Below, piece by piece: positions 4,307-47,139 of a stretch of 64,000 nt of DNA; position 1 is the stretch's first letter, and every line of letters begins with the position of its first letter. The notes beneath the pieces were generated by a model, which made no database searches, had not been told where the DNA came from, and saw only the letters and a program-made list of their open reading frames with translations. The stretch comes from Hydra vulgaris (Eukaryota; Cnidaria; Hydrozoa; Anthoathecata; Hydridae). The translations under genes were made by a program, and so were the position numbers. The stretch spans positions 73,239,501 through 73,303,500 of the forward strand of contig NC_088920.1 in the NCBI RefSeq assembly GCF_038396675.1. Reading direction: 5' to 3'.

Positions 4307-4492
4307 TTAAAAATGTTTATATATTCTATCATAGACAATTTTTTCTGTAGACAAAATTTCCAATCCTATTTCTTTACATTTCTCACACATATCGTTTTCA
4401 TTGCAAGGACAAAAAGCTAAACAATCAAGTCTTTTCTTCATTATTTCTGTTAATTCCATTATTTTTGGAGACGACATTATATTATTTTCCAT
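4307..4492 (-). CDS. Cys-rich small family protein, 61 aa (array gene F relative)
   Basis: Start MENNIM at 4492, directly behind the leader motif. Residues 24-39 hold the family signature LAFCPCNENDMCEKC, that is L-x2-C-x-C-x5-C-x2-C, a plausible zinc site. Closest to the array gene at 26349, which has LAFCTCNMINMCKDC. It is intact. No enzymatic motif; a zinc-binding adaptor or nucleic-acid-binding role is inference. Confidence 0.65.
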   Translation of the reverse strand: MENNIMSSPKIMELTEIMKKRLDCLAFCPCNENDMCEKCKEIGLEILSTEKIVYDRIYKHF

Positions 4493-4614
4493 TTTTTTAT
4501 TATGAAATCTTAAAAAAAATACAAAAAAAATATATATACATACAAAGTTTAAACAAAATTCAATATAAAAAATACAAAGTTTAAACAAAAATTCAATATA
4601 AAAATATGATTATT

Positions 4615-4833
4615 TTAGTTTATATTTGAAAAAAAAATGCTTTTTCCATAGTCATTTTTTCCAGAATGTAAAATTTTCAAACAAATCTTTCTACATTTTC
4701 TACACATATCGTCTCGATTACAAGTACACAAAGCTAAATTGTTAATTCCATCTTTATGATATTTAAAATTCTTTTTTAATAACACTTCTGCTAATCCCAC
4801 TTCTCGTGAAGCTAACATTATATTATTTTCCAT
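4615..4833 (-). CDS. Cys-rich small family protein, 72 aa (array gene E relative)
   Basis: The N-terminal half has the family helix pattern VGLAEVLLKKNFKYHKDGI, followed by LALCTCNRDDMCRKC, matching the array gene at 26017 (LASCACESDDMCQKC). It starts at 4833 behind a T-tract/AG leader and is intact. It sits head to tail with its paralogues at 4307 and 4871. Confidence 0.65.
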   Translation of the reverse strand: MENNIMLASREVGLAEVLLKKNFKYHKDGINNLALCTCNRDDMCRKCRKICLKILHSGKNDYGKSIFFSNIN

Positions 4834-4870
4834 TTTTTAATTATGTAATCTAAAAAAATGTATACAAAGT

Positions 4871-5099
4871 TTAAACAAAACAATATAAAAAATCTTTACA
4901 TTCCGAACATAAAATTTCTGATCTAATCTCTCGACATTTTGTACACATATCATTCGGTTCGCAAGGACACGAAGCCAAATAGTTAATTCCATCTTCGTAA
5001 TATGAAAATTTCTTTTTCAAGTCTTCATAATATGAAAATTTCTTTTTCAAGAATACTTCAGTCAATCCTAATTTTTTCGAAGCCAACATTATTTTCCAT
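4871..5099 (-). pseudogene. Cys-rich family gene with internal duplication, start damaged
   Basis: The ATG behind the leader motif (5099) is five bases short of its relatives and runs out of frame. The conserved frame restarts at an ATG at 5089 (MLASKKLGLTEVFLKK). A 30-bp tandem duplication repeats KKKFSYYEDL. The signature LASCPCEPNDMCTKC is intact. It may still be translated from 5089. Confidence 0.55.
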
Positions 5100-5159
5100 T
5101 TTTTGATTATGTAATCTAAAAAAAAATAAATTTATTTTAAAAAAATTCTATCAAAAAAA

Positions 5160-5707
5160 TTATATTTCAAAAACTCTTCTTATTTCAGCACATATGTAAC
5201 AAGCATTTAAATTACAAAATAAACAATTTGATGTGCATTCACATTGAGCTATTTTACATAAAGCATCATAAACAAAATCACGTTTTTTACAAATCACTTT
5301 GAGTAATGTTTTTGTAATCCCAATTTTTTTTGATACTTTTTCACACATTTTAGAAGTCTCTTCACTCGCACACCAACCTAAAAATAACAATTCAGCTAAA
5401 TTTTCTAATAAATATTCTTTTTCCATTTTAAAAGTTTCTTTTTCTGAATATTTATCAACTCGTAGTTTTTCAGGTTTGATTTGTTGCACTTGTTTTACAA
5501 AATTGTCAAATTCTCCTTGAGTCATTTTTTCTTGAAACAATTCTTTAAGATGATAATCTTCCAAACAATCTTCCATACAACCACTTTCATTCTTAAAAAA
5601 ATCTGGAAGAACATTGCTGTAACGAAATACGTTGTTGTCAGGATCAATATCTTCAATAAGGCCAAAGCTTCCGTCTTTGTTTTTTCAAATTCACAAACCA
5701 CAACCAT
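5160..5707 (-). pseudogene. Relative of array gene D with one frameshift
   Basis: The leader-linked ATG at 5707 opens MVVVCEFEKTKTEA. About 15 codons later the frame changes, and the conserved frame continues through DFFKNESGCMEDCLEDYHL and FVKQVQQIKP to a family domain (KKIGITKTLLKVICKK, then IAQCECTSNCLFC). Unlike the plus-strand copies it has no stop before the Cys domain, showing that the array gene D is one long gene in two parts. Confidence 0.65.
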
Positions 5708-5767
5708 TTTTTATTATGTAACCTAAAAAATACAAAAAAATAATTAATCTAAAAAATACAATAAAAA

Positions 5768-5962
5768 TTAATTTGAATGGTCATTTAAATTTCTCAAACA
5801 ATTTTCTTTGGTTTCATTCATCGCGTAAACAATTTTCTTTGGTTTGTTCATTACATAATCAATTTTAACTTTTTGAGAATTTGCACATAGTTTTAAATAA
5901 CGTGATGAGGTTTCAACAGGTGTCATTAAACTATTAGTTGGTCGTACTGTTAAATTTGGCAT
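5768..5962 (-). CDS. Small protein, relative of 24648 gene
   Basis: Starts MPNLTVRPTNSL, like MVKLIVRPTNSI at 24648, and keeps IDYVMN and IVYAMNETKE; the YAMN segment is duplicated here through a short internal repeat. 64 residues, hydrophilic, no recognised domain. The leader motif (T-tract, AG, ATTACATAATAAAAA) is duplicated just upstream at about 5970-6010. Confidence 0.55.
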   Translation of the reverse strand: MPNLTVRPTNSLMTPVETSSRYLKLCANSQKVKIDYVMNKPKKIVYAMNETKENCLRNLNDHSN

Positions 5963-5999
5963 TTTTTATTATGTAATCTAAATTTTTTATTATGTAATC

Positions 6000-6176
6000 T
6001 GTAGAAAAAAAAATTTAATCAAAAAAGTACTCAAATATTCCATTGTTTTTAAAAATGAACGTTGTAATTCTTCGCGAATACGTATTGTTTTTTCAGTCTT
6101 GTTGACAAAAGAAAAATGATTCATTATGTCTTTGCGAAATTCGGGGACATTTTTTTCAATATATGATGATATCCTA
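6000..6176 (-). pseudogene. 3' fragment of a gene like 24092-24613
   Basis: Encodes YIEKNVPEFRKDIMNHF and TEKTIRIREELQ, nearly identical to the end of the protein at 24092. Its upstream two thirds are absent: at 6177 the sequence switches to a repeat found next to the GC-rich element. One T is missing before the original stop. This is a recombination or deletion junction. Confidence 0.65.
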
Positions 6177-6685: not shown

Positions 6686-6757
6686 TGTATTAGTTAGCTA
6701 AAAAAAAAAATTTATTTATAAAAAAGTTTTTACAAAAAAAATAACCGTAATAAATAT

Positions 6758-7018: not shown

Positions 7019-7197
7019 TTTTTTTTTTTATTTCTAAAGAAAAAAAGAAATGTTAGTATAAAGTAATATAAAAAAATCATGAATAAAAAAACACAAAAAA
7101 ATGTAATGAAAAAAACACAAAAAATGTAATAAAATATATATTTCTGTATAAAAAAAAGTTAATTATTTTTTTTTAAGTAACATGCTTGGCATATTAC

Positions 7198-7532: not shown

Positions 7533-7558
7533 TTTTTTATTAGTTAACTAAAAAAAAA
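7533..7558 (-). promoter_or_regulatory. Gene-start leader motif, minus-strand example
   Basis: On the minus strand: T-tract, AG at 7549-7548, TTAACTAATAAAAAAA, then ATG at 7532. Other minus-strand examples lie before 4492, 4833, 5707, 5962, 6685, 8845, 9983, 10251, 11327 and 12426. Confidence 0.75.
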
Positions 7559-8287
7559 TTAAAAAAATTGATTTACAATTTGAAAATGAATAAAACAAGG
7601 TTCAATAGTATAAAAATATTGTTTTTGGGACCAAGTTATATATTCCATGATTAAACGATATAATTTTCGTATTAAATGTATTTCGAGCTTTTTACGTGGA
7701 TCGGCAAAACAGGATATTTCTGTGAAAAGTAAATGAAATAAAGTAAAAAGATATCGTCTTTGAAGATAAAAAAAGGATAAACGTTTACTTATAAAAGGTA
7801 AATGATAATAAATATATATTTTATAATAGGTGTAAAACAATAATCGAATATTATCTGGATCTTTCCATTTGGTGAGTGGTAGTTTGGTTTTATCGAATAA
7901 ACAAACAATTTTTTCTCGCAATTGATCAAATTCAAATTGGATTCGTTCTTGTGCCAATCTTCTTTTACACAAATCTTTCATAGTGAGTTGGGATTGATTT
8001 TCATTGACAAATTTGTTTGTTTTATCCAATGTCAAATCATCAAAGTCAAAAAGATAATAAGAAAAATGTCGTTCTTCCATACTAAACCAGATGAGTGTTT
8101 GTTGTTGAAAGTTATCAATGTAAGAATAAATGTTTTCTAAATAATGACTAGCTTTTTTTGTTTCTTTGTCTATTTCTATAAACTTTTTTTCTCGTCCCAT
8201 ATGTCGATAAAGTTTTTGTAAAAAGTGACGAAGTGTAGCTTCTTCTTTATCAAGTATTCTTCTAATATTGCCCCAGTTGCTTCCTAT
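7559..8287 (-). CDS. LCxRKL-family protein, about 213 aa or longer
   Basis: An open frame from an ATG at 8200 encodes 213 residues with DLCKRRLAQERIQFEFDQL, the motif shared with genes at 7198, 30395, 44541 and 44974. The frame stays open upstream to about 8287 (RRILDKEEATLRHFLQKLY), so the true start is probably lost: at the leader-linked position the sequence reads AATAGG instead of an in-frame ATG. This is the only uninterrupted copy; the array relatives (29864-30364) are full of stops. Helical, aromatic-rich, function unknown. Confidence 0.6.
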   Translation of the reverse strand: MGSNWGNIRRILDKEEATLRHFLQKLYRHMGREKKFIEIDKETKKASHYLENIYSYIDNFQQQTLIWFSMEERHFSYYLFDFDDLTLDKTNKFVNENQSQLTMKDLCKRRLAQERIQFEFDQLREKIVCLFDKTKLPLTKWKDPDNIRLLFYTYYKIYIYYHLPFISKRLSFFYLQRRYLFTLFHLLFTEISCFADPRKKLEIHLIRKLYRLIMEYITWSQKQYFYTIEPCFIHFQIVNQFF

Positions 8288-8401
8288 TTTTTTTAATTAG
8301 CTGTCTAAAAAAAAAATTTACAAAATGAGTTAATACATTAAAAAAATTTGGGAAAAAATTATCGTTTTACAAGTAAAAAATTTTTTTTCCTAAAAAAAGA
8401 G

Positions 8402-8845: not shown

Positions 8846-8950
8846 TTTTTTTATTAGTTAATCTAAAAAAAATTAAGGGTTAATAATGTTAGATAAACAA
8901 CAAAAAACATTTAAAAAAATAGGATAAATAATTTTTTTACATAAAATATA

Positions 8951-9983: not shown

Positions 9984-10053
9984 TTTTTTATTAGTTGCTG
10001 AAAAAAAAACATTTATTTATATAAAAACTATAAAAAAAATATACATGTCTTTT

Positions 10054-10251: not shown

Positions 10252-10303
10252 TTTTTTATTTTTTAGTTGTCTAAAAAAAGAAAAAAATTACAAAATAAAG
10301 TGA

Positions 10304-10968: not shown

Positions 10969-11018
10969 TTTTAATATATTAGTTTGCTGAAAAATAATAA
11001 AAAAAAGTTACAAAAAAG

Positions 11019-11327: not shown

Positions 11328-11359
11328 TTTTTTTTATTTGCTAAAAAAATATAAAAAAA

Positions 11360-11865: not shown

Positions 11866-12426
11866 TTATAAATTTTCCGGATCTGGGCTCTCTAAAAAAA
11901 GAAAAAATAATTAAAAAATAATTTATATTTTTTTTATAAAAAAAAGGATCGAGTTTCACTTACGGGGAGAGTAGTCCCAGTGCGAGGGGCCGACTTCTCT
12001 ATTGGGTTCTGGTGGTGATCGTGGTGATCGTGGTGATAGTGGCGATCGTGGATACGGATTTTCTAAAAAAAGAAAATAGTTTAAAAAAAATGTATTTTTT
12101 TATTAATAAGAAAAATAGTAAAGTTAAAAAAAAACTTACGACGAGTCCGAGATAATCTTGTACGAACTACAAAATTTTCATTGACAAAATTTCTAAAATC
12201 GGTTAGTTTTTGCATTTCTTTTTCTAGAAAAAAATAGTATTATAAAAAATAATAAATTTTTCTTATAAAAATGAAAAAAACCATAAGAACAATTACCTCT
12301 TTTTGCGTTGTATGGAAATATTTGAGCGATAGGTTTTTTTTTTTCGTTTTGAACAATATAAAATTGATCATTAATACTGTCACTAAAAACTTCGTATTTA
12401 ATCTTGTTAATTGTGATATATCTCAT
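11866..12426 (-). CDS. Four-exon gene, Pro/Ser/Arg-rich product of 112 aa
   Basis: Exons 12426-12297, 12223-12140, 12062-11964 and 11891-11866 are separated by three introns with donors GTAATT, GTAAGT and GTAAGT and acceptors TTTTTTCTAG, TTTTTTTAG and TTTTTTTAG. The four exons total 339 bases and read in one frame to TAA. Product: N-terminal globular-looking part (MRYITINKIKYEVFSDS), then QKLTDFRNFVNENFVVRTRL, then SPLSPRSPRSPPEPN. The start follows TATTTTTAG. A damaged paralogue lies at 1-260. Function unknown; it is the clearest evidence of spliceosomal introns in the block. Confidence 0.75.
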
Positions 12427-12519
12427 TATTAAAACTAAAAATAATAGGTTTATTTAGAAATAATTACTCTATTTTTTATTGTAATAAATATAAATAGTTA
12501 TAAATATCATTTTTATAAA

Positions 12520-12861
12520 ATGCCTAAAATAAGGTATACTCCTAGATCATTAAACACTGTCAATATGGCACGTACAAAAACAACAGTTCCTAGAACAAAA
12601 AAAGCTGTTCAAACACAAACGAGTACAAAACAAAGTTCAACATCGACACAGACTGAAAATCAGTATTTACCGAGCAATTGTAAAAGAATATTATCGTGTT
12701 TACGAAGAACAAATAATCCTTATAAAGATAATAAAACAAATCGTAAACTTGGAAGAGTTGGTAAAAGAATAAAACGCTGGGTTCATACTGCTGAATCCTA
12801 TGTCGATATTAAACAACAATTAAAAGAAGCAAACATACGACGAAAAAATAGACAAAAATAA
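12520..12861 (+). CDS. Small basic core-like protein, 113 aa
   Basis: Intact relative of 358-774. Rich in Thr/Ser/Gln early (KAVQTQTSTKQSSTSTQTEN), then KRILSCLRRTNNPYKDNK, and a basic end (ANIRRKNRQK). The middle segment matches the C-terminus of the 2121/14194 proteins. Likely a nucleic-acid-binding structural protein by charge and context; unproven. Confidence 0.7.
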   Translation: MPKIRYTPRSLNTVNMARTKTTVPRTKKAVQTQTSTKQSSTSTQTENQYLPSNCKRILSCLRRTNNPYKDNKTNRKLGRVGKRIKRWVHTAESYVDIKQQLKEANIRRKNRQK

Positions 12862-13032
12862 TATATTTACAAAAAGAAATTTATATACAAAAAAAATTAT
12901 TGATATGAATAAACAGTGGGTGAAAAAAATAGTCTTTTTAGTGTCTTTTTTAAATCGCTTCTTTTTTTCGAGCGGCTTTTTTTTTTTTTTTTTAAAAATG
13001 AAAAAAACGTTTTTTTAAAAAAACTAACATGT

Positions 13033-13386
13033 TTAATATAAAAAAGTGTATAAAAAAAGCTTACTTTTTTTTACAGAGATTTTTAGAGTTGTTTCTGTAA
13101 ATTCTAATGGAGCTTCGTCTTCCATTTCTTTTTCAGCTTCTTTTGGAGGTTTGGTTTGACTTTTTATGATAAAGTCTATTTTATCTGGATCGTTAATAAA
13201 AATATTGAAATCCAATACTGGATCATCTTCTATTAAAATAACTGAATCGTCATCACTTACAACGATTTCTTGTTCTTCTTCTAAAATCAGTTCATTTTCT
13301 TTAAAATTTATTTCTTTTCTAACGATTTCCTCGTCTAGAAAATATTTTGTTTTTTTTACCGACCTTTTTGTTAATGTTTTTGTCCT
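13033..13386 (-). pseudogene. Acidic-core protein, second copy, start lost
   Basis: Paralogue of 687-1223. Where that copy has ATG this one has AGG (13386-13384). It keeps TKRSVKKTKYFLDEEI and VILIEDDPVLDFNIF. A GTAAGC donor-like site (13064-13059) sits at the place of the exon 1 end in the other copy, but I cannot assign exon 2 with confidence. The region 12862-13032 downstream holds only A/T runs. Confidence 0.55.
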
Positions 13387-13667
13387 TTTTGATTTTGTTA
13401 ACAAAAAAAACACGCTTTTTATGTATAAAATTTAATCTCTACAGATTAAAGCGAAATAATAGCTAAAGTGATGCAACTTTATGCAATAAAAAGAAAATGC
13501 TGTGTCATGTTAGTCAAAATTAGAAACTTTTAATAGCGCTTTTATGAACAAGATTAAAGAGATTAAAATACGGAGTAAACAACTTTTTAAAAACACTGTG
13601 AAGAAAAAAACTCTGCGTAAAGTATTAAAATAACATGTTAAATGAATTCAAAACTCCATGAACCATC
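13387..13667. other. Conserved noncoding spacer, second copy
   Basis: Matches 1224-1504 with scattered changes; no gene seen. Confidence 0.5.
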
Positions 13668-13760
13668 ACGTCGACGTAGCATAGTGTATTCGATCGCCGC
13701 ACTATGTTTCTAACGCCATGACATTAGACCGTTGAGGGTTCGATTCTCGGTGAAGGTAGT
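13668..13760 (+). other. tRNA-like element, copy 2
   Basis: TAGCATAGTGT (13677-13687) and GGTTCGATTCT (13737-13747) keep the 60-base spacing of the first copy. Substitutions in the hairpin loop and T-arm have accumulated while the box sequences are mostly kept. Confidence 0.45.
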
Positions 13761-13773
13761 AGAAAGTTTAGTT

Positions 13774-13889
13774 AGTTATATGTTAAAAATATCAAGCCGA
13801 CGAAAGTAGACTTGGTAATGTATGTCTAGATAGTTATATGTTAAAAATATCAAGCCGACGAAAGTTGACTTGGTAATGTATGTGGAGTG
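13774..13889 (+). repeat. Two tandem 58-bp repeats
   Basis: Units start at 13774 and 13832 and contain AGTTATATGTTAAAAATATC and AAGCCGACGAAAGT. They occupy the place of the 51-bp array of the first block. Confidence 0.85.
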
Positions 13890-14193
13890 TGTGAGAACGA
13901 GTGAGCGCACGAGTGTGTGAGTAAGCAGGCTAAGGATTAAGGCAGGATTAAGTAAGTTAAGTAAGGACTAAGTAAGTAAGTAAGAAAAAAATACGGCCGT
14001 ATAAAATATAAAGACTGTAAGAAAAAAACACAAGTAAGTAGGCCTACTAAGATAAAGTAAAGACAGAATAAGTAAGGTTGTGTTAGGGTGACACTATGTT
14101 TTTTTATCTTGTAAAAAAAAGATATAAAAAAAATACAAGTCAAAAAAAGTTAAAGTCGAAAAAAAGTTAAAGTCAAAAAAGTTAAAGTCAAAA
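13890..14193 (+). promoter_or_regulatory. Candidate promoter region, second copy
   Basis: Same order as 1812-2120: GAGTGTGTGAGAACGAGTGA, TAAG repeats, palindrome ATACGGCCGTAT at 13991-14002 merging with TATAAAATATAAAG, then tracts of AAAGTCAAAAAAGTT up to the ATG at 14194. Confidence 0.45.
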
Positions 14194-14616
14194 ATGGCTG
14201 CAGATGATATTGATTTTTCCCGTATGATTGTAAGACGGAATTTATTTTCAACACCTTCCTATAAAAGCAATCTGAGACCTAAATATACATCTAAATTACC
14301 CAAATATACAGTAGATGGAAAATGGCCTTTTCATAGGGATGCTTTTTTTGAATTTTTTGATAGGACCTCTTTTGATGAAAACGAGTTAACCGATCCCAAT
14401 AATACAGAACTAAGAGCTCTAAGACGTAGAAGAGTTAAGAAAAATTTGAAAAAAATAAAGCGTCAATATTGTAGAAAAGCACTGATGTGTTATCGAAAAA
14501 CGAAAAGCAAGTATATAAATAATAAATAAAATCGCGAAATGAATCGAGTAGGAAAACCGATATATCGTTTTGTTTTAACAAAAGTGGATCGCGATAAACA
14601 CAGAAACATTTATTAA
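14194..14616 (+). pseudogene. Basic core-like protein, copy with nonsense codon
   Basis: Copy of 2121-2543. A TAA at 14527-14529 replaces the CAA of the other copy, cutting the product to 111 residues; the frame beyond is open and conserved to the original TAA at 14614-14616. The shortened protein still has RRRRVKKNLKKIKRQY. Confidence 0.7.
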
Positions 14617-14619
14617 AAA

Positions 14620-14823
14620 ATGAGACATAGAAGACATAGAGGTCATAGAAATGCTAGAAGATATATTTTTGTTCATCGAAAATCGAAACCTAATCCTAGA
14701 CCTTATCATTCTTTAATCGGTAAAGGACGAAAACGTATACTTAGAAAACGCGGTAAAGGTATCCTTGGTAACCTATTAGGAAATATACCCGTACTTGGTG
14801 GAGTATTTAAAACTATATTTTAA
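14620..14823 (+). CDS. Adenovirus core-X-like basic/amphipathic peptide, 67 aa
   Basis: An intact example: head MRHRRHRGHRNARRYIF, middle GKGRKRILRKRGKG, tail ILGNLLGNIPVLGGVFKTIF. The basic head plus Gly-rich hydrophobic tail is the architecture of adenovirus protein X and, in the tail, of membrane-lytic protein VI-type helices. It begins three bases after its upstream neighbour's original stop. Probably a DNA-condensing core peptide; the family assignment rests on architecture, not on alignment. Confidence 0.6.
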   Translation: MRHRRHRGHRNARRYIFVHRKSKPNPRPYHSLIGKGRKRILRKRGKGILGNLLGNIPVLGGVFKTIF

Positions 14824-14883
14824 TCGGATTAAAAAACATGTATAGAAAAGCTCAACTCTGTAAAACGTTTATTTACAAAAAGA

Positions 14884-15246
14884 ATGAATTCAACAGTGTG
14901 TAAACACGCCAAAAGAAAAAGTCACATTAAAAAATATTGTGACAAATGTTTTGTGCAAAGAATGAAAAAACACGTTCAAGAAAATTTAAAAGAATATCAA
15001 TGGTTGTTTGAAGATATGAAAAAACATAAGAACGACGAGTTAAAAAATTTACGAACTGACACGAGTGCGTTTGGAGATTACATTTTGACTTATGAGTATA
15101 AAAACGGCATTGTTGAAATCATATCTGGCGACAAAAAAAATGGACACACAAAAACATCCACTTTTTTTGGTGGTTTTGTATTAGATTTTGATATTATAAA
15201 TAAAATATATAGTATATCACATATATATGACGGTGTTTTTTTGTAG
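14884..15246 (+). CDS. Cys/His N-terminal small protein, second copy
   Basis: 120 residues; CKHAKRKSHIKKYCDKCF at the N-terminus as in 3130-3516. One T fewer in the run near the end brings the stop forward, losing the last eight residues of the other copy. A 150-base AT-rich spacer follows. Confidence 0.6.
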   Translation: MNSTVCKHAKRKSHIKKYCDKCFVQRMKKHVQENLKEYQWLFEDMKKHKNDELKNLRTDTSAFGDYILTYEYKNGIVEIISGDKKNGHTKTSTFFGGFVLDFDIINKIYSISHIYDGVFL

Positions 15247-15396
15247 GCAATAAAATACCAAAAATATATTGATAAAAAAAATATTTAATAGTGTTTTTTC
15301 TGTTTTTTTTTAAAAAAAAAGTACTATAAATTTGTTTGTTTTGAAATAAAAAAATTCATTTGAAGAAAAAAAATTCATTTGAAATAAACAAAAAAA

Positions 15397-15702
15397 ATGG
15401 AGTTTAAAACTTGTTTAAACGAATTTTATAGCTCTGTTATGAATGTAGAAGTTTCCAAGTTTGAAGCTTGCGATAGTTTAAAACAAATTGAAGGCAATTT
15501 TAAATTAGTATTTCGACTGGATGGAAGTAAACAAATCAAAGTAACTCGTGTTAATAATAAAGCCCATATTGATTTTTTTTATGGTGAAAACAACCACATT
15601 TGTTCCACATTTGAAATGAATTATGAAGACTTTGTTGATGTTATTAAAGAGACATTTAACATTTGGCAACTTAAAGAAGCAGACATAAAAAATGACTTTT
15701 GA
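15397..15702 (+). CDS. PC4-like small protein A, 101 aa
   Basis: Residues about 30-95 have a strand/strand/strand/helix order: EGNFKLVFRLDGSKQIKVTR, NKAHIDFFYG, then FEMNYEDFVDVIKETFNIW. This resembles the PC4/p15 single-stranded-DNA-binding fold (V...G...I-D-h-Y...GhxL...hxxL). The neighbouring gene at 15692 overlaps its last 11 bases and is a diverged duplicate. PC4-like proteins act in transcription and replication; assignment is tentative. Confidence 0.5.
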   Translation: MEFKTCLNEFYSSVMNVEVSKFEACDSLKQIEGNFKLVFRLDGSKQIKVTRVNNKAHIDFFYGENNHICSTFEMNYEDFVDVIKETFNIWQLKEADIKNDF

Positions 15703-16033
15703 AACTTACGCAGCAGACGCTTATCCGTTTCCACAATTAGAAGATTTTTATATTTCACTATTCAAAGCTAATAGTAAAGCAAAGGGAGATTTTTCTTTGT
15801 CACATTGTTTAAAACAGGGTCAAATTATTAAAGTAACTTATTCAAATAATAAATATCTTATTGTATTTATATATGAAGACGGAGAAAAACATCATTTTGA
15901 AATAAGTCAAAAAAAGTTTTTACGTTTTGTTGGATGTTCTCTTAGCGGATGGTTTATCGACGTAAAACGCAGAAACGACGTTATAGATCTAAGATACGTA
16001 AGCGAAGAAGAGTCCGACGAGGAAGAGGATTAG
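15692..16033 (+). CDS. PC4-like small protein B, 113 aa
   Basis: Tandem paralogue of 15397: KGDFSLSHCLKQGQIIKVTY, KYLIVFIYEDGEKHHFEI, then KKFLRFVGCSLSGW. It ends with an acidic tail (SEEESDEEED) whose codons overlap the basic N-terminus of the gene at 15949 in another frame. This is a compact arrangement of an acidic and an Arg-rich reading of the same bases. Confidence 0.5.
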   Translation: MTFETYAADAYPFPQLEDFYISLFKANSKAKGDFSLSHCLKQGQIIKVTYSNNKYLIVFIYEDGEKHHFEISQKKFLRFVGCSLSGWFIDVKRRNDVIDLRYVSEEESDEEED

Positions 16034-16203
16034 CCGATTTTATCACTCCTAAAAATGTATTTAACGCATTGCAAGTGGGTTCGCTGTTATACAGTATAAA
16101 AAAAGCGTGGAAAGGCAAAAAAACAAAAACGCCTCCTGTTCCTGTTGTTACAAAACCTGCCAATCCTTATATGCCTCCGGATAAAGTGTTTGAAGTATAT
16201 TAA
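15949..16203 (+). CDS. Second core-X/VI-like basic protein, 84 aa
   Basis: The head is extremely basic (KTQKRRYRSKIRKRRRVRRG), followed by GLADFITPKNVFNALQVGSL, an amphipathic segment, then a Lys/Pro linker (KKTKTPPVPVVTKPANPYMP). Overlaps the upstream gene by 85 bases. The layout of basic head, amphipathic helix and Pro-rich tail is reminiscent of adenovirus core and VI proteins. Only its first nine codons survive in the other block (4180). Confidence 0.55.
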   Translation: MVYRRKTQKRRYRSKIRKRRRVRRGRGLADFITPKNVFNALQVGSLLYSIKKAWKGKKTKTPPVPVVTKPANPYMPPDKVFEVY

Positions 16204-16227
16204 AAAAAAAAGTTGTAAAAAAAAATA

Positions 16228-16559
16228 TTATATTATTTCATTTAATGAATAAATATGTACATATAAAAAATTGTTTCTTTTTTCTTGTTCTCGTTTCTTT
16301 TTATATTGTTTTATTAGAATAGTTTTTTTTCCTTTGCAAGTTAAACAATTTTTTTTAAAAGATGTATTTTTGCAGATCTATTGGTAACAGTATTAAAAAT
16401 CCATACTTCTTGATTTACAACGTGGATAGTGCAGTTTTTTAACAAATGTTGATTTTTTTTTTCTTTTAAAACTACAAAAAACAGTTCACCATATCCATTG
16501 CACGTGGCGCATTTTTCTTCTACGATTTCTTCTAATAGCGTGTGCGCTGTTCTCTTCAT
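16228..16559 (-). pseudogene. CxxCxGxG zinc-ribbon protein, frameshifted
   Basis: The N-terminal half has EEKCATCNGYGELFF, the CxxCxGxG repeat of DnaJ-type zinc ribbons. The partner motif NCLTCKGKKTIL lies at about 16325 in another frame, so a frameshift separates the halves. It starts at 16559. Between them lies a beta-type stretch (TIHVVNQEVWIFN). Possibly a folding factor or transcription-type ribbon; unknown. Confidence 0.5.
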
Positions 16560-16567
16560 AATTCTGT

Positions 16568-17090
16568 TTATATTAAATTCAGAGCAATTTGCCTTTTTAT
16601 TTCTTTTTTAGTCATGACATCATCAATAGGTACATCTAAAAATTGGTTGGCAGTCTTTAATCGCGTATAATTGTTTGCATAAATTCTATCCATTTCATTT
16701 TGCATCATGTAATAAATATTTTCCTCGTTCATCACAGCTGGAATGGCTTGAATATCCAATAGGGATAACTTACCCCACGTACCTTCATAATTTGTTCTTT
16801 AGAATCCTGCATCTTTTAAAAATCTTTTAGCAGCATTTTGAGCTAATAATTGTTTTTCATAAATATCATAATGTAAAGGAATTTGTTTTGTTTTCATAGA
16901 CAATAGATCACGTTCCAGATTTTCCTGTTTTTTCATATAAAAATGCAACTGCATGTCTTTTTCAAACAGTTGTTTAGCAGTGTTATCAAGGTATTGAAAG
17001 AGTTCGTGTTTAATAAACTGAAAAAATGAATAAAGATTTATCTGAACTAGTGAAGAGGCATGAAGCGTTGTTACTTCAGAAAAATAATGG
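16568..17090 (-). pseudogene. Unknown helical protein, interrupted by in-frame stop
   Basis: Two open parts lie in one frame around a TAA at 16799-16801: upstream LFQYLDNTAKQLFEKDMQLH and LLAQNAAKRFLKDAGF, downstream DIQAIPAVMNEENIYYMMQN and DVPIDDVMTKKEIKRQIALN. The start is unclear because the frame enters the protease region without an ATG. It could be a minor structural protein next to the protease. Confidence 0.45.
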
Positions 17091-17091
17091 T

Positions 17092-17690
17092 TTAACAGTC
17101 TGCACAACGAAGGTAAATATATTTGATCTGTATATAATTTTCGCTGCGAAAGACTAGAGCAACAAAATAGGCGGCAAATGCTCCACATAAACTACTATCA
17201 TTCCATTGAAAAGGAAATTTATTGTATGAAAAAAATACATTTTGATTGCCAGTGATTTCGCTATATTTTAAAATAAATTTGGTAAACCAATAAAATTCAC
17301 GATTTTCTGCTGTCCATTCTGAAGGAAAATGATTGGATTGACGTATATAAGAATTAATTTCAATTTCGTTGTAGTTAATGTTAATCGTGTTGATTTGTAC
17401 ATTGCTATTGACTTCTTCTACTGCTTCAAACAAATACACTTTCTTCACCTAAATTATCAAAACAAAAAAAATGACCCTTCTCTATTTTCATCAACACTCT
17501 CCAATGTTAACCTGCGTCTTTTGTAGTTTCATTGTTGTAAATGATAAAGGAGCCATTTTTTTTTCATTTGTTGAATAATATGAATATGTGTTTTTGTTTG
17601 ACTTAGTTCGTCAAAAGCATATATTCCTATAAAATAATTTTTAAATTCTGAATTTTTAATAAAACGAGACAAAGAATCATCAGTAGCCAT
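17092..17690 (-). pseudogene. Adenovirus/Polinton-type cysteine protease, broken
   Basis: Three parts in three frames show the family signature. From the ATG at 17690: SEFKNYFIGIYAFDEL, the N-terminal motif of Polinton proteases. Next, the catalytic His in HWRVLMKIEKGHFF (His at 17506-17504) and Asp in CFDNLG (17458-17456). Finally QWNDSSLCGAFAAYF, with the oxyanion Gln and catalytic Cys (17187-17185). A TAA directly precedes the His codon. The family cleaves precursor capsid and core proteins during virion maturation. At least two frameshifts plus this stop inactivate it as read. Confidence 0.7.
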
Positions 17691-17696
17691 TTTTTT

Positions 17697-18338
17697 TTAT
17701 TCTTCTTTTTCTAAATTAAAAAAACTCGCAATAAATAGTGTTACAACAGCGTGTAATATATTAACAAATAAAGTTTTTTTATCGCCGGTTCCTTCCTTTA
17801 TAATTCCTTCAATGTTTCTTTTAACAGACTTCTTTTTTAAAGCACCATCTAGTTTTTTTATCAAAGAAGAAACGGTAGGTATTACTTTTGAAGTAAACGT
17901 ATCCACAAAACCGTCAGTTTGATCGCCTTCTGTTAGAACCATAGGTGGTTTGATTTTTCTTTCTAGCAGCAAAAGAGTAAGCTTGGTTTTATAGAGTTCT
18001 ATTACATAATGTTCACCATATGTTTCTTTCAAATCATCAAAGTAGTTGAGATGAACAGAACAAAGTTGAGGATTTTCGAGTAAATTATTAAATTCGCTGT
18101 TTTTAAAACATTTTTCAATACTGTAAGAATTTAATGTTATTCTTTTAGATTTGAGTACATTTTGTAAAAATTCAAATGAATTTTTATCTGTAAAATGTTC
18201 TTCTTCTACGTAATCAGATGAAGGTGAAGAATTTCCAGACTTGTGTTCGTAATATTTATATCTTTTAGATACTTCATCGAGCGCGCACACTGCGCAATTG
18301 TTGTGAATTTTTTTAATGATGCTATCAACGCGATTCAT
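17697..18338 (-). CDS. Unknown protein, 213 aa, with C-terminal membrane segment
   Basis: One of the few long intact frames. The N-terminal part has a Cys pair (NNCAVCALDEV). A Gly/Thr-rich linker precedes VIPTVSSLIKKLDGALKKK. The end is hydrophobic (LFVNILHAVVTLFIASFF) plus a short charged tail, fitting a tail anchor. It starts at 18338 behind AATTAAAAAAATG-type sequence, adjacent to the protease. Perhaps a virion membrane or capsid-associated protein; no family recognised. Confidence 0.6.
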   Translation of the reverse strand: MNRVDSIIKKIHNNCAVCALDEVSKRYKYYEHKSGNSSPSSDYVEEEHFTDKNSFEFLQNVLKSKRITLNSYSIEKCFKNSEFNNLLENPQLCSVHLNYFDDLKETYGEHYVIELYKTKLTLLLLERKIKPPMVLTEGDQTDGFVDTFTSKVIPTVSSLIKKLDGALKKKSVKRNIEGIIKEGTGDKKTLFVNILHAVVTLFIASFFNLEKEE

Positions 18339-18474
18339 TTTTTTAATTAAAAAGGTAAAAAAAAATATTTTTAAAAAATTTGATTTTTTATACTTTTTTA
18401 TTTGTTTTATTAAAAGAATACAATTTTAAGAATATAATTTTTTTAATAAAAAAGCATTTTTTTTTCTAGTTGTG

Positions 18475-19098
18475 GTTGTTAGATTTGGAATTTATAACCA
18501 ACAGTGATCGACACATCTGTGGGGAAAAAATTGTGTTAGAGAATTGTGTTTACGATCCATCGGTGATAAAAAATATTTTCACACGCAAGTCATTCCGTGT
18601 GTTAGTTATCACAAATTAGATGAAAAATATAAAAAAGTATTTTTTTATTGTCAAAACAACATACATGGGTTAGAGTACTATCCTAGTTTTAAATACACAA
18701 GTGAAATCATATTTTGTGCATCTGTGATCGATTATTTAAAAGAAAAATTTTCAAAATATGAACGAAACTTTGTATTTTATAAAGGCGGTTGTATGGAAAA
18801 AGATGTGTTAAATGCGATAAAGGAGCTTAAAATACTCTCGTTTGATTTAAATCAGTGGTTTTTTCCAAAAATCTCTCTCTTGCCTCTTTATGTCAATAAC
18901 GAAGATGAATGCTTGGAACATTTTTCAAATGTCAAAGATAAAACAAATTGTTGTCATCACTGCCCTCGATATGAAACATTGATGTTTTCATTGTATTTGG
19001 AAGATTTTGTAAACGGATTTACAATAAATGGCGACGTTTATGACCATGATTACTTTAGTTTTATTAAATTTATAAAAGACAACATTCAATGTATTTAA
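18475..19098 (+). pseudogene. DEDD-type exonuclease-like protein, frameshifted
   Basis: Right after TTTTTTTTCTAG the sequence encodes LWLLDLEFI, the D-x-E first motif of DEDD 3'-5' exonucleases. In another frame from 18544 follow NIHGLEYYPSFKY, NFVFYKGGCMEKDVLNAI and TNCCHHCPRYETLMF. This order (DxE, N-x-HGL, FYKGG...K..L, Cys/His cluster) is known from exonuclease-like ORFs in animal mobile elements. No ATG is visible before the first motif, so an upstream exon may be missing. On the opposite strand to its neighbours. Confidence 0.45.
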
Positions 19099-19213
19099 AT
19101 ATTAAAAAAAGACACTTCAGAATGTTTTGAAAATATATTTAAAATAAATAATCTTGTATATCAACTTTTTGATATGGAAAAAAAAATAAAAAAATAAAAA
19201 AAAATTGTCTTGT

Positions 19214-20156
19214 TTATAATCCTTCTTCCGCAGTCACATAATATTTGGTGTAATGAATGTTTGTATGAATAGGTTGTTTCGATACTATTTTGTCGTTTTC
19301 ATAATTATAAACTTCGTCCTCTTTTCTGTATAAAATCTTTGAAATGTTAAAATTTCTTTTAAAGAAAAAAAACCATTGAGCTGTGGGAAACATTTCTATT
19401 AAACTTTTTTCGTGAAAATTGCAACGTTCAAAGGCTTTGTAAATGTACACTTTATCTCCTTCTTGATGTACTTTTTTTTGTATAAAATATTCATAAATAG
19501 GAACAGGTGTGTATAGGGTGTAATAACCATTATGAAAAACTTTATCGTCAAACGAAAATCAAGGTGGAGGGTCCATGCAAGCTGGAACAACGTAATTTAA
19601 TAGTTTACAATTTTTCTTCAACTGATGATATTCCCATTTGTTAGATAGATAAGGAAACAAAAAATAATACTTTAAAGTGGGTTTAATTTTGCTTTTCCGC
19701 GAAGTTTGCTTTTCCACGTTTTTTGATTTGTAATAAAGTTTATATACTTTAATAAAGTCTTCTAGTTGTTTTTTTAATTCTTCGTGTTGTTTTTCTACAG
19801 TTGTTTTAGTTACATTTAAAAAATCATAGTTTATCAGGCGACATACTTCTAGCATGCTCGTTCTCCATGATGGTGCTTGTTCTACAAAATTCATATAACG
19901 TCGTGATGGTTTTTCAAACAAATCAAGTCTATTTTCATAGTCTTTAGCTATAAAAATATAATATAAATCCTTGTATTTTTCTTCTTCCAAGTTTAATTCC
20001 AAGTTAAAATTTTTTAAATACGTAAAGATAATGTCTTGCTATTCTTCATACGTGTTATTTAAATGGTGAAATTCAAACAACATAGGATGTAATTCATTAT
20101 CTGGATAAAAGTTGAACAGCTTTGATGAGACTTTCGTCGAATTGTTTGCTAGTCAT
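19214..20156 (-). pseudogene. Unknown protein of about 300 codons, several breaks
   Basis: It begins MTSKQFDESLIKAVQ at 20156 behind a TATA promoter. A frameshift and a stop near 20040 follow, then a long frame (NRLDLFEKPSRRYMNFVEQA; KLLNYVVPACMDPPP). A TGA at 19559-19561 interrupts, and the same frame continues to 19214 (GDKVYIYKAFERCNFHEKSL; FNISKILYRKEDEVYNYEND). No domain recognised. By size and place between protease and a second TATA gene it may be structural. Confidence 0.5.
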
Positions 20157-20179
20157 TTTCTCTTTCACAAATGAACTAG

Positions 20180-20240
20180 CGTTTTTTTTTTCACCTTTTA
20201 TATAGGAAAATAGAGAGATTAAAAAAAAAAACAAGTTTTT
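20180..20240 (-). promoter_or_regulatory. TATA promoter of the 20156 gene
   Basis: On the minus strand TTTAATCTCTCTATTTTC is followed by CCTATATAAAAGGTG and an A-run, about 40-60 bases before the ATG at 20156. The same elements occur before the 20301 gene and, in part, before the dUTPase. This class lacks the leader motif seen elsewhere. Confidence 0.5.
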
Positions 20241-20300
20241 TAATATTAAAACAGGTTTTTTAATTTAAAAAATTACAAAAATTTTCTTAAAAAAAAATTA

Positions 20301-21098
20301 TTATTCGTCTTCTGGTACTTCTGGTACTTCTGGTTCGACTTTAGTTTTTTTTGTTTCAATTTCAGCAAGCTCGAGCGAAGCTCTTTTCAAATTTTGATTT
20401 AAATTTCGTGAAATACCATTTTTAATTAACGAATTATGAAAAGATGGTTCTATAGCCATTTGTCTTGCATATTCTGTAGCATGAATTTCGTCTTCTTCTT
20501 TTGCTAATCGTATACTAAAATTGCTAAAATCGATCGTTTTTAATATGCGAGTTTTAGGGTAAGCTACTTGCATATAGGCTTTGTTTTGAGCATCTTGCAT
20601 AGTCAACATTAAACTTTCCAATACTTTTTTGGTCATTTTGTTATGATTAAATTTAAACACCATATTATTAGTGAGTTCACCTTTGTTCATTTTAAATGTG
20701 TTGTCGTCTTTAGTTAATTTCAATTCGCTTCTAAACAAATAATTTGTTTTGTTGAGATCGCACATTTCTCTATATCTCCATGGTAACAAGATTTCACAGC
20801 CCTCATTTTTTGGTTTGTAAATCAATTCTTTTTTATTAAAGTTAAATTGCGCCAATGGTTTAAGAGGAACAGTAGAATATTGTTTTTCTTTCACATTTTT
20901 TTCTTCTTTAAATTCAATGAGCCACAAAGTAACAGCTGCTAGATCTGCAAATTTAACATAGGTATTATCATTGCAGTAAACAGTTTCAAACTCATTTTTT
21001 GATGTTCGTTGTGTTGTGAATGAACTTTGAAATGGAAATGAACTCTTTTTATACTGTTTCAGTTGAAAAGAGAGATTAAAAAAACAAGTACTAAACAA
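20301..21098 (-). CDS. Unknown protein, about 235-265 aa
   Basis: The longest uninterrupted frame outside the array. Includes FADLAAVTLWLIEFKEEKN, NEGCEILLPWRYREMCDLNK, and an acidic, Pro/Glu-rich tail (KVEPEVPEVPEDE) after KKTK. The nearest ATG behind the TATA box (20995) is one base out of frame, so the extreme 5' end is uncertain. The frame upstream to 21098 includes promoter sequence and is not likely to be translated. It belongs to the TATA-type promoter group. Function unknown. Confidence 0.6.
   Translation of the reverse strand: MFSTCFFNLSFQLKQYKKSSFPFQSSFTTQRTSKNEFETVYCNDNTYVKFADLAAVTLWLIEFKEEKNVKEKQYSTVPLKPLAQFNFNKKELIYKPKNEGCEILLPWRYREMCDLNKTNYLFRSELKLTKDDNTFKMNKGELTNNMVFKFNHNKMTKKVLESLMLTMQDAQNKAYMQVAYPKTRILKTIDFSNFSIRLAKEEDEIHATEYARQMAIEPSFHNSLIKNGISRNLNQNLKRASLELAEIETKKTKVEPEVPEVPEDE
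21036..21085 (-). promoter_or_regulatory. TATA promoter of the 20301 gene
   Basis: TTTAATCTCTCTTTTC, then GTATAAAAAGAGTTCATTT on the minus strand. It matches the promoter at 20180-20240 in the order and spacing of both blocks. Confidence 0.5.
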
Positions 21099-29478: not shown

Positions 29479-29502
29479 ATTTTTTTTTTAGAATAAAAAA
29501 AA

Positions 29503-30364: not shown

Positions 30365-30394
30365 TTTTTTTTTTTTGAATAACTAATAAAAAAA

Positions 30395-43745: not shown

Positions 43746-43829
43746 TTTTTTGTATTTTTTTTAAATCCTTATAATTTTTTTTATACCAATTTATACTAAC
43801 ATTCTTTTTTTTTTAGTTATAAATAAAAA

Positions 43830-43985: not shown

Positions 43986-44145
43986 AAAATATCTATAAAT
44001 GAATATATAAAAATAAATTTTTCTATACGTAAATTATAATCTTTTTTTATTGTAAATTTTATGGTCATTTTATTGTACTTTTTTTATTGACATTTTTATT
44101 GTAAATATATTTTCATAAATAAGTTTTTTTTAGCTAACTAATACA

Positions 44146-44973: not shown

Positions 44974-45627
44974 ATGAAAAGCATTAAAAAATACACCCAA
45001 GATTTTGGTGACACGGAAAATTATGAAGAACCTAAAAATGATTTTTTGTGTGTTTTTCATCGAGATTTAGAGGAAAATATAGTCTGGGAAGAAATAATTA
45101 AACGGAAAAAAGCAAAACGAGAAAACAAGTTTATTCCTTATTCTTACTATTTAATAGAGGTGGCACAAAACACAAGAATTTGGTTTAATATTGACATTTA
45201 CGATCAAATCATGAAAGAAATAAAATGTTACCCCAATGGAGAAATTGATTTGTCGTTAAAACAACTCTGTTTAAGAAAATTATCAATAAAAAAGTTAAAA
45301 CATAAAATGGAAGCAGTCATGGATAAAATTGAATCTATTTTGGTCAATTTCAAATTTAATTTTGACAAAATCTTGCGGAGATTTCATGACGAATATGGTT
45401 TTTCTGAATATAGGACACATAGAATATTTATAAAAAATTTAAATTATACTCGCGGACCGTATTGGCTATGGAGAACTTCTACAGATTTGTCTTTTTTTAT
45501 TATACAAAAAGCCTTAATAAAAGGACTTCAAAATATTTTTAGTTGTTTTTTTGCAGAAATAAATTTTAAATCTTTTTGGAAAACCAATGCAAAAAATATC
45601 TTGACAATATATTTAATATTATTTTAA
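44974..45627 (+). CDS. LCxRKL-family protein, 217 aa
   Basis: Longest intact member: MKSIKKYTQDFGDTENYEEP, YYLIEVAQNTRIWFNIDIYD, LSLKQLCLRKLSIKKLKHKM, then a helical, aromatic C-terminus (SFFIIQKALIKGLQNIFSCF). Compare 7559 (IWFSMEE; DLCKRRLAQERIQ). Start after TTTATTTTATAGA. Function unknown. Confidence 0.65.
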   Translation: MKSIKKYTQDFGDTENYEEPKNDFLCVFHRDLEENIVWEEIIKRKKAKRENKFIPYSYYLIEVAQNTRIWFNIDIYDQIMKEIKCYPNGEIDLSLKQLCLRKLSIKKLKHKMEAVMDKIESILVNFKFNFDKILRRFHDEYGFSEYRTHRIFIKNLNYTRGPYWLWRTSTDLSFFIIQKALIKGLQNIFSCFFAEINFKSFWKTNAKNILTIYLILF

Positions 45628-45724
45628 AAACTATTTATTGGTTAAAAAATCAATACGAATTTATAAATGCAAATTATTTTCTTAACCATAAAATAATTTA
45701 CGAATATTTTGTATAATTTTTTAG

Positions 45725-46140
45725 ATGGATAAAAAAAATATAAAAAAAGGAAGAACAGGAAAAAGAAACAGGTATTGAGAAAAAAAAGAAACAGAAAACA
45801 CGTTCTCAACTGAAGGTATGTATACAGTTACATTTATAAACATGTCAAACTTGAGAACAACCTAATCACTTTTTTTTCTTTTTTAGAACTAAATTATGCC
45901 TACAAAAAAACCAAAAACGAAAAGGAGAAAGATATGAAAAGAAAAAAAATGAAAGAGCTTGAGAAAATTAAAAAAGACTTTGACAAACCGGACAAAAGAT
46001 ATTTTTGCTCTGGTTGCTGTTTATGCAGTTGGCCAGAAAAACCATGCTGCTGGAAAGAATGCTCGTTTATATGGGATATAGACGAGCAATGTGCGGGATG
46101 TCATTTTTGCATCCCACATTTGAAACAAGAATTTTTTTAA
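45725..46140 (+). pseudogene. Two-exon Cys-rich gene with one in-frame stop
   Basis: Exon 1 45725-45815, donor GTATGT; exon 2 45887-46140, acceptor TTCTTTTTTAG. The join keeps the frame (345 bases), but a TGA at 45776-45778 interrupts exon 1. Exon 2 starts basic (KRKKMKELEKIKKDFD) and holds nine Cys: CSGCCLCSW, CCWKEC, then CAGCHFC. A dense metal-binding module is likely. Its 3' end is duplicated at 46350. Confidence 0.6.
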
Positions 46141-46644
46141 AACTGTAGATAGACTTTATTATAATACATTTTTATTTCATATTTCAATATTTTTTCTTTT
46201 TACAACAAGTCAATTTTCAAGATTATATACTTTTTATTGCAAAATTGGTATTTTTTATTGCTGTATTCTTTTAAATCATGTCTGAAGCGGTCGAATAACA
46301 AAAAAGTTTTTTGATTTTTAATAAAAAAAAAAATGAATAAATAAATAAAAGAAAAACCATGCTGCTGGAAAGAATGCTCGTTTATATGGGATATAGACGA
46401 GCAATGTGCGGGATGTCATTTTTGCATCCCACATTTGAAACAAGAATTTTTTTAAAACTGTAGATAGACTTTATTATAATACATTTTTATTTCATATTTC
46501 AATATTTTTTCTTTTTACAACAAGTCAATTTTCAAGATTATATACTTTTTATTGCAAAATTGGTATTTTTTATTGCTGTATTCTTTTAAATCATGTCTGA
46601 AGCGGTCGAATAACAAAAAAGTTTTTTGATTTTTAATAAAATCT
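46035..46644. repeat. Tandem duplication with 315-bp offset
   Basis: 46035-46329 and 46350-46644 are practically identical, covering the end of the Cys-rich gene (from EKPCCWKECSF) and its 3' flank. The second copy has no start and is a fragment. Around 46141-46349 no other gene is seen. Confidence 0.9.
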
Positions 46645-46669
46645 TTTTTCCACCATGACTCTCTTTAAT

Positions 46670-46810
46670 TTAATACACAGGGAAACTATAGTGCGTGCTA
46701 TCGTACGGAATACCATTATGATACTTGATCGTGTCTTGAGGGTTGTACGGTTTCGCGACTGATACTTTTTTCGGCTGCTTAAACTGTTGCAACGGTTTAT
46801 TTTTCTCCAT
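46670..46810 (-). CDS. Small protein, 46 aa
   Basis: MEKNKPLQQFKQPKKVSVAK followed by PYNPQDTIKYHNGIPYDSTH and SFPVY. ATG at 46810 directly after TATTTTTAG. Basic head and Tyr/Pro-rich tail. Leader use and clean frame support it, but it is short and has no paralogue here. Confidence 0.45.
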   Translation of the reverse strand: MEKNKPLQQFKQPKKVSVAKPYNPQDTIKYHNGIPYDSTHYSFPVY

Positions 46811-46983
46811 CTAAAAATAATGTCAATGCGAGTTTTTATCGATTATTTTTATCGTTTTCTTGAGGGTTTTTTATACCATTTTTTCAACACCTTTTTATTA
46901 ACAGATTCAAACTTTTAAACTTGAAAATTTTTTTCCTTAAAGAATAACCCGTTTAAAAATTTTTTTTTTAGATTAGAATAAAA

Positions 46984-47139
46984 ATGCCAATTTATTCACC
47001 ATCATTGACACAAGAAGAAATTTATTTACCATCATTGACACAATTTATTCACCATCATTTACACAAGAAGAAAAAAGATTTTATTGCAGAAGAAGCGCAC
47101 AGTTCTGAATTATCTTATAACTGTGTAGAAATAATATAA
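46984..47139 (+). CDS. Short ORF with SPSLTQ repeats
   Basis: Leader T-tract/AG plus ATTAGAATAAAA. The ORF encodes MPIYSPSLTQEEIYLPSLTQ; a third repeat of the same DNA is read in a shifted frame (FIHHHLHKKKK), so the original product has probably been altered by slippage. Last gene with the block's leader. Confidence 0.4.
   Translation: MPIYSPSLTQEEIYLPSLTQFIHHHLHKKKKDFIAEEAHSSELSYNCVEII

Follow-up and report, generated by a model that had tools for sequence, protein, structure and literature searches.

The first 47 kb of a 64,000-nucleotide stretch of the Hydra vulgaris genome (RefSeq assembly GCF_038396675.1, contig NC_088920.1, positions 73,239,501 to 73,303,500; hereafter the window) form an A/T-rich virus-like block, in which many small accessory genes share a junction element directly before the ATG, composed of a T-tract, an AG and a leader of about 15 bases. 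The signal is real, is typical of one gene class and is repeated in many copies in the Hydra genome. On balance, the sequence makes it probable that these genes are transcribed as polycistronic units that are resolved by spliced-leader (SL) trans-splicing of the host at the junction AGs. We infer this as the best fit from the T-tract and AG in many copies, the few donors inside the units, the tiny gaps between genes, the TATA box at most recognised array starts and the presence of SL-B1 in the host. In this explanation, the window holds part of what appears to be an endogenous large DNA virus within the Hydra genome.

The junction element in the window

The general order scored was a T-tract, an AG, 11-23 A/T-rich bases and an ATG, and the strict form was a T-tract, AG, CATAAT or ACTAAT, an A-run and ATG. 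The original prediction had counted more than 30 ATGs with this common order; the strict form occurred 28 times in the window and not once in 60 first-order Markov shuffles, and the core alone occurred 57 times against 16.5 expected (shuffle maximum 31). The order thus stood, although the count was inflated by three tandem units of 6.3 kb each (24540-43358, plus strand; 98-100% identical, each with a copy of a PIF1-like helicase gene), in which several genes are counted three times. The motif occurs in sense orientation in two arrays of head-to-tail genes. Minus-strand matches with both AG and ATG span 4.8-10.0 kb and plus-strand ones 22.4-39.8 kb; junctions read by eye widen these ranges to 11.3 kb and 46.98 kb. 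Thirty of 31 hand-picked non-redundant junctions, tandem copies excluded, passed the rule, the sole failure being ATG 5962 on the minus strand, where the leader is tandemly duplicated; as the 31 were chosen for carrying the motif, their T and AG columns are no evidence by themselves. The predicted short gaps between head-to-tail genes were borne out, 12 of 30 junctions having 8-43 bases between stop and AG; the median distance is 56, and the assignment of open reading frames (ORFs) inflates some of the values. The features of the two arrays and of the block between them are as follows.

260..295, minus: start of the first gene of the next minus array leftward, TATATAAAAAA then TTTTTTAG and an A-run, no CTAAT/CATAAT core
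4493..4520, minus: T-tract, AAG and leader, ATG 4492, last gene of the minus array
4834..4861, minus: T-tract, AG and leader, ATG 4833
5100..5127, minus: T-tract, AG and leader, ATG 5099
5708..5734, minus: T-tract, AG and GTTACATAATAAAAA, ATG 5707
5963..6008, minus: leader in tandem duplicate, ATG 5962
6686..6709, minus: T-tract, AG and CTAACTAATACA, ATG 6685; TATAAATAAAT 22 bases before the AG
7019..7045, minus: T-tract, AG and leader, ATG 7018; branch-like ACTAAC upstream
7533..7559, minus: T-tract, AG and TTAACTAATAAAAAA, ATG 7532; 9 bases from upstream stop to AG
8288..8318, minus: T-tract, AG and leader of the gene at 7559-8287, start codon missing here
8846..8874, minus: T-tract, AG and ATTAACTAATAAAAAAA, ATG 8845; branch-like CTAAC/TTAACC upstream
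9984..10009, minus: T-tract, CAG and leader, TRAF/MATH-like gene, ATG 9983; TATATAAATAAAT 24 bases before the AG
10252..10282, minus: T-tract, AG and leader, ATG 10251
10969..10998, minus: T-tract, AG and leader, ATG 10968 (ORF of 14 codons)
11328..11352, minus: T-tract, AG and leader before the Death-domain gene, ATG 11327
12300..21120: virion-class gene block, signal mostly missing; TATAAAAA/TATAAAAG at 21053, 20202 and 18392, minus
21232..21243, plus: TATATAAAAAG upstream of the first gene of the plus array (dUTPase), whose ATG has no T-tract, AG and leader
21814..21838, plus: T-tract, AG and leader, ATG 21839
22521..22549, plus: T-tract, AG and leader, ATG 22550
23020..23047, plus: T-tract, AG and leader, ATG 23048
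23493..23523, plus: T-tract, AG and leader, ATG 23524; 8 bases from upstream stop to AG
24063..24091, plus: T-tract, AG and leader, ATG 24092
24620..24647, plus: T-tract, AG and leader, ATG 24648; 16 bases from upstream stop
24868..24894, plus: T-tract, AG and ATTACATAATAAAAA, ATG 24895
25172..25198, plus: T-tract, AG and ATTACATAATAAAAA, ATG 25199
25483..25510, plus: T-tract, AG and leader, ATG 25511
25990..26016, plus: T-tract, AG and leader, ATG 26017
26323..26348, plus: T-tract, AG and ATTTCATAATAAAA, ATG 26349
26646..26673, plus: T-tract, AG and leader, start codon missing in this copy
27222..27248, plus: T-tract, AG and leader, ATG 27249
28220..28246, plus: T-tract, CAG and CAAATAATAAAAAAA, PIF1-like helicase, ATG 28247
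29480..29502, plus: T-tract, AG and leader, ATG 29503; 11 bases from upstream stop
30366..30394, plus: leader core kept, AG absent, ATG 30395; likewise in L009
30759..43358, plus: second and third tandem 6.3-kb copies, near-identical, with their own leader copies
43805..43829, plus: T-tract, AG and leader, ATG 43830; branch-like ACTAAC
44122..44145, plus: T-tract, AG and CTAACTAATACA, ATG 44146
46960..46983, plus: T-tract, AG and leader, ATG 46984, last gene of the plus array

Recurrence in other copies in the genome

L-numbers (L009, L011, L015 and so on) denote further stretches of the same genome. The exact core pattern was found at 40 places in the genome, 15 of them with a T-tract and AG before the core, mostly beside homologous genes; at L044 no leader gene lies close to the pattern. 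A wider pattern (up to two mismatches) matched 783 places genome-wide against one for the reversed control. Gene starts in 25 stretches were also placed by tblastn with the proteins of leader genes, a procedure that made no use of the motif, though the query families themselves had been picked from leader genes. With the tandem copies at 30.8-43.4 kb left aside, this gave 113 starts, 107 of them distinct, and a T-tract with AG preceded 95 of the 107. The 12 starts without it include internal or degraded starts and the duplicated leader at 5962 (minus), and in two families, that of ATG 30395 (plus) with its counterpart in L009 and one in L015/L016, the AG has been lost and the leader is left. 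When self-hits and junctions fetched by the pattern were removed, 48 of 59 starts still carried T-tract and AG; the baseline in those loci was 997 of 4897 ATGs, leader ATGs included. At L015:5110-5272 (minus), the leader and the first codons are repeated in tandem, and the leader is thus translated as protein.

Gene classes and array starts

The signal does not precede nearly every gene, as had been predicted. Virion-class starts were scored at 14 places in the window, which include several paralog pairs, and at 5 elsewhere. T-tract and AG were present at 1 of these 19, or 2 of 20 once the start at 15949 (plus), with TTCTCTTAG 5 bases before the ATG, is included, and the CTAAT/CATAAT core at none of the 19.

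Individual genes had also been said to have no TATA box. A TATA box is present at six of the eight recognised array starts (21232 plus, L015/L016, L058, 260 minus, L060 and L061) and absent at 12426 (minus) and L059; no array start was recognised in L051 and L057. In the plus arrays of the window, L015/L016 and L058, the first ATG has TATATAAAAAG(G) about 60-75 bases upstream and is not preceded by a T-tract, AG and leader. In the minus arrays starting at 260, L060 and L061, the TATA box lies 26-33 bases before TTTTTTAG and an A-run, and the start at 12426 has TTTTTAG and TTTTAATA and no clear TATA. The core was found at none of the recognised array starts; its restriction to internal positions speaks for RNA processing. 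The claim held for leader genes as a group, in which no excess of TATA is seen at -32 to -18 (13 of 75 against 9.9), and failed at the six array starts and in two internal families with TATA-like stretches. Past the stop codons of the array-last genes, as read in the window sequence, there is no such element, which indicates that the element marks gene starts.

Splice-acceptor features and their controls

In the 95 junctions, the base before the AG was T in 76, C in 16, A in 3 and G in none, and C occurred 0-4 times at each of the next seven positions; the unbiased subset gave T35, C11 and A2, it being understood that the detection rule includes this base in its T-rich test and so disfavours purines. 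T-rich AGs of the host are preceded by T27, A20, C17 and G9 (n=73); purines are thus rarer before the viral AGs, and C is not special. Donors of the form GT[AG][AT]GT were scarce on the sense strand (1 against 6.2 in the plus unit, 1 against 3.2 in the minus unit) and not depleted on the antisense strand (5 against 4.7 and 4 against 5.7, respectively). At 27 of 75 junctions the 46 bases preceding the AG contain an ATG, and such upstream ATGs are not depleted (19 against 19.8 at the 30 window junctions), so this stretch is unlikely to belong to the mature mRNA, whose 5′ end is expected at the AG or past it.

Exact matches to the SL-B1 tail number 222 in the host genome, some of them arranged in tandem, against 0 for the reversed control, the SL-B1 letters being those of PMC7986045, Table 1. 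The host therefore carries SL-B1 copies, among which the SL RNA genes are putative. Tandem arrays of the tail lie at C1:49.03-49.08 Mb and 60.53-60.56 Mb, with spacings of about 0.9 and 1.4 kb, and the many scattered single tails could be retrocopies of trans-spliced mRNAs. Within the window no SL-B1-like exon was found at up to three mismatches. Pairing of the leader with the SL-B1 tail was considered and set aside: the duplex scored -3.31, shuffled tails gave -1.83 and were as low in 4 of 200 cases, and the pairing was judged to reflect the U-run of the SL facing the A-run of the leader.

Several results weigh against trans-splicing. Branch-like [CT]T[AG]AC sites at -32 to -18 (11 of 75 against 3.2, with no excess elsewhere) had looked like proof of acceptors together with the C before the AG, and both were weakened by T-rich host controls: C is equally common before host T-rich AGs (17 of 73), and host T-rich 46-mers contain branch-like sites in 6 of 22 against 2.0, compared with 11 of 75 against 5.9 for viral junctions in the same test. 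These controls led us to weight trans-splicing lower, and a promoter or a repeat without function higher. Donor depletion was not uniform either, since [AC]AGGT[AG] was not depleted in the minus unit (3 against 2.6), GTAAG was scarce in the plus unit on the sense and antisense strands alike, and the plus tail had 2 sense donors against 1.0 and 0 antisense against 3.1. AG is depleted upstream of the junction AG (8 against 24.6), but so is GA (14 against 22.8), which leaves AG exclusion ambiguous. A search for retrocopies joining the SL to the leader, made with one leader type, gave two matches, neither of them an SL junction (L062 is unrelated sequence and L063 a duplicated leader). Two further points, the conservation of the leader past the AG and the spacing of TATA-like stretches at some genes, are taken up below.

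Conservation of the leader and a possible poly(A) signal

Leader identity was measured in 31 homologous pairs, 18 of them with a coding-sequence (CDS) identity below 0.80; L015/L016 and shared partners make these pairs non-independent. In the 18 diverged pairs, identity was 0.88 in the leader, 0.60 in the first 90 coding bases, 0.58 in the 60 bases upstream and 0.72 in the T-tract. As a control, 11 distinct diverged leader pairs were 0.85 alike against 0.58 when shuffled, and random leader pairs 0.66 against 0.56. The leaders of ATG 44146 (plus) and ATG 6685 (minus) are identical, and the starts of their CDSs are only 59% alike. When AG, TT or AC was freed genome-wide with the rest of the pattern fixed, 271, 260 and 273 places were found, with 4, 3 and 8 departures, respectively, among the matches listed, suggesting either that the leader is constrained about as strongly as the AG or that the copies are recent. 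Conservation past the AG thus appears to exceed that of the coding sequence, for which a role as acceptor alone would be insufficient.

This conservation, and an AATAAA or ATTAAA hexamer within the leader, go beyond the original prediction. The hexamer is present at 26 of 30 window junctions against 13.8 from shuffled leaders (maximum 23 in 2000), in 74 of 95 leaders overall and in 33 of 48 in the unbiased set. TGTA occurs upstream at 52 of 75 junctions against 18.6, compared with 3 of 22 against 6.1 in T-rich stretches of the host. UGUA is a cleavage-factor site, and UGUA with AAUAAA suggests, as a conjecture, that the junction doubles as a poly(A) signal for the upstream gene. Counting against such a role are the lack of enrichment of a GU/U-rich element past the ATG, the 21 of 95 leaders without a hexamer, the 13 of 30 junctions in which a hexamer also stands between the stop codon and the AG, and families that alter the hexamer yet keep the AG.

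Proposed mechanism

Under trans-splicing, the accessory genes would be transcribed in polycistronic units, in most of which the first gene has a TATA box. The junction of each internal gene would consist of a U-rich tract with UGUA, an AG serving as 3′ splice site, an AU-rich leader usually with UAAU, and the AUG. The AG would act as acceptor for the spliced-leader RNA of Hydra, giving each internal gene a capped mRNA of its own, in which the conserved leader would form a short 5′ untranslated region (UTR). If the leader is perhaps also the poly(A) signal of the upstream gene, each junction would be a site of competition between splicing and cleavage. In a fuller version that we put forward tentatively, the accessory genes would depend on host trans-splicing through overlapping acceptor, UAAU leader and poly(A) junctions, each giving either an upstream 3′ end or a downstream 5′ end, and the virion genes would use conventional TATA promoters, making two expression classes. 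Spliced-leader trans-splicing had been one of three options in the original prediction and fits the sequence best among them, though not as a virus-wide device, given that the virion genes mostly have no signal.

Alternative explanations

The main rival reading is a compact promoter before each gene, comparable to those of poxviruses or baculoviruses, with a weak TATA or A/T stretch, the T-tract, an initiator at the AG or the TAAT core, and a 5′ UTR of 10-15 bases. We regard it as unlikely but deserving of weight. It would account for the strong conservation of the leader past the AG, and it gains from the finding that branch-like sites and the C before the AG are not specific to acceptors here. 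TATA-like stretches also stand where initiation would place them: a TATA/AATAAA-like stretch lies 22-24 bases before the AG in the internal families of ATG 9983 and ATG 6685 (minus), seven of nine TATA-like matches in the 30 junctions lie at -21 to -29, and the 26-33 bases between TATA and TTTTTTAG at the three minus-array first genes are the distance expected for a start site. The spacing at these first genes and in the two internal families speaks for initiation there, and against trans-splicing. A promoter would, however, leave unexplained the depletion of most donor patterns and the absence of an overall TATA excess at the leader genes; array-first genes with a clear TATA have no CTAAT/CATAAT core, the near-invariant G of the AG is unexpected for an initiator, and the gaps of 8-16 bases would place the promoter within the upstream coding sequence.

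A single viral leader exon, cis-spliced from the TATA promoter of the array to alternative acceptors, had been offered as another option and is improbable. In its favour, most sense donor patterns are rare within the units, the first gene of the minus array carries GTAAGT donors (window positions 12139 and 11963; also in L060), and L015/L016 have TATATAAAAAGG followed 62 bases later by AAAG|GTAAGT right before the first ATG. This one strong candidate is, however, not conserved, with only GTTAGT in L058 and none in the window; L015 and L016 are near-identical and count as one event, and at the minus-array first genes the distance from TATA to ATG is too short for an exon.

That the element has no special function, being a repeat spread by gene duplication in an A/T-rich element combined with A-rich start contexts, would fit the many paralogs, the tandem copies in the arrays, the leader duplications, the similarity already seen between random leader pairs and an A/T-rich sequence that favours AATAAA and T-tracts, yet it is likewise given little credence, as the leader is kept in diverged copies well above the shuffled level and above coding and upstream sequence, precedes unrelated genes (Death, MATH, PIF1) and is mostly missing before virion genes.

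The viral block and its host setting

The block is partly degraded, with a start codon missing or a gene split in some cases, and the right flank of the window looks like host sequence with transposons. Of the 30 ORFs scanned with Pfam, those over the cut-offs in the window were for PIF1 helicase, dUTPase, a MATH/TRAF-like protein and a Death domain; L011 and L015 gave homologs of MATH and PIF1 over the cut-offs, and the remaining ORFs had no match at that level. No polymerase B, integrase, double-jelly-roll capsid or FtsK-like ATPase was found among the 30, and no genome-wide family search was made.

The TRAF-like protein (8951-10016, minus, split; one open frame at L011:7236-8309, minus) has an N-terminal part that is zinc-finger-like by eye and a MATH domain by Pfam. 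Together with the Death-domain protein at 11019-11333 (minus), it may interfere with cell-death signalling of the host. The split ORF at 16799-17448 (minus) is adenain-like by eye, without a Pfam match, and a direct repeat of 315 bases, 100% identical, lies at 46035-46641. A virion-class protein (358-774 and 12520-12861, plus) contains an internal MARTK-T-VPRTKKAVQTQT stretch, which we take to resemble a histone H3 tail. A 584-residue capsid candidate at L011:1126-2880 (minus) was picked by position and has no Pfam match; of the two homologs found by a protein search, one (60% identical) lies on an ENA contig of 2003 bases and the other is LOC124815749 of Hydra vulgaris, and a structure model of the homolog P0001 was poor (mean predicted local distance difference test score 34.7). 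Outside Hydra, no relatives were found in viral contigs with proteins or motif, nor in a motif scan of genome contigs, and two further protein searches likewise gave no match.

Comparison with known systems

Possibly 67-94% of Hydra genes are trans-spliced (PMC7986045), and the SLFinder study includes a section on Hydra (PMC7346339). The closest likeness is the Hydra operon RFC140/flp, which, in the available part of its description (PMC3273482), needs its acceptor AG and shows a T-rich intergenic stretch, a polypyrimidine tract and an AG acceptor before the ATG, with genes head to tail and no intergenic promoter. As described there, it differs in comprising two host genes, with 417 bases from stop to acceptor, the latter preceded by a predicted poly(A) signal, whereas in the viral arrays the genes are many, as few as 8 bases may separate stop and acceptor, and the AG is followed by a conserved leader that often contains AATAAA. 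The gapless operons of tunicates also have adjacent genes that nearly touch and are resolved by SL trans-splicing; they consist of host genes, and no shared leader is described in the part available (PMC7986045).

Virus-wide use of host trans-splicing had been thought new, a view that has to be qualified by mobile elements and an RNA virus. In the accessible portions of the reports, the SL is found on about 30% of Hydra transposable-element Iso-Seq reads (PMC12220107) and SL1 on mRNA of C. elegans Cer1 (PMC3315495); both are mobile elements with host trans-splicing, for which those portions describe no element-wide acceptor array with a shared leader. A dinoflagellate RNA virus assembly carries the host spliced leader (dinoSL) on a viral transcript; according to the part of the report available, this is a small RNA virus, and its authors consider molecular mimicry possible (PMC10235124). 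No prior description of the junction element is named in the available parts of the literature found on the topic.

Adenovirus late mRNAs, with their tripartite leader, combine one promoter with many acceptors just before the genes; they differ in using a common viral leader exon with a conserved donor, which was not found conserved here. Mavericks/Polintons and adintoviruses are integrated DNA viruses of animals, and Hydra has Mavericks; their polymerase B, integrase and capsid were not identified among the 30 scanned ORFs. One such element, P1-HM of Hydra vulgaris, is named in the text available from PMC11071308.

If trans-splicing at the junction AGs is correct, a DNA virus would rely on the trans-splicing machinery of its host to divide its polycistronic RNAs, and the virus family would be tied to SL-bearing hosts. 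Its copies would supply hundreds of natural acceptors from which the requirements of SL acceptors could be learned, and compact gene arrays in an animal nucleus would be explained without a promoter for each gene.

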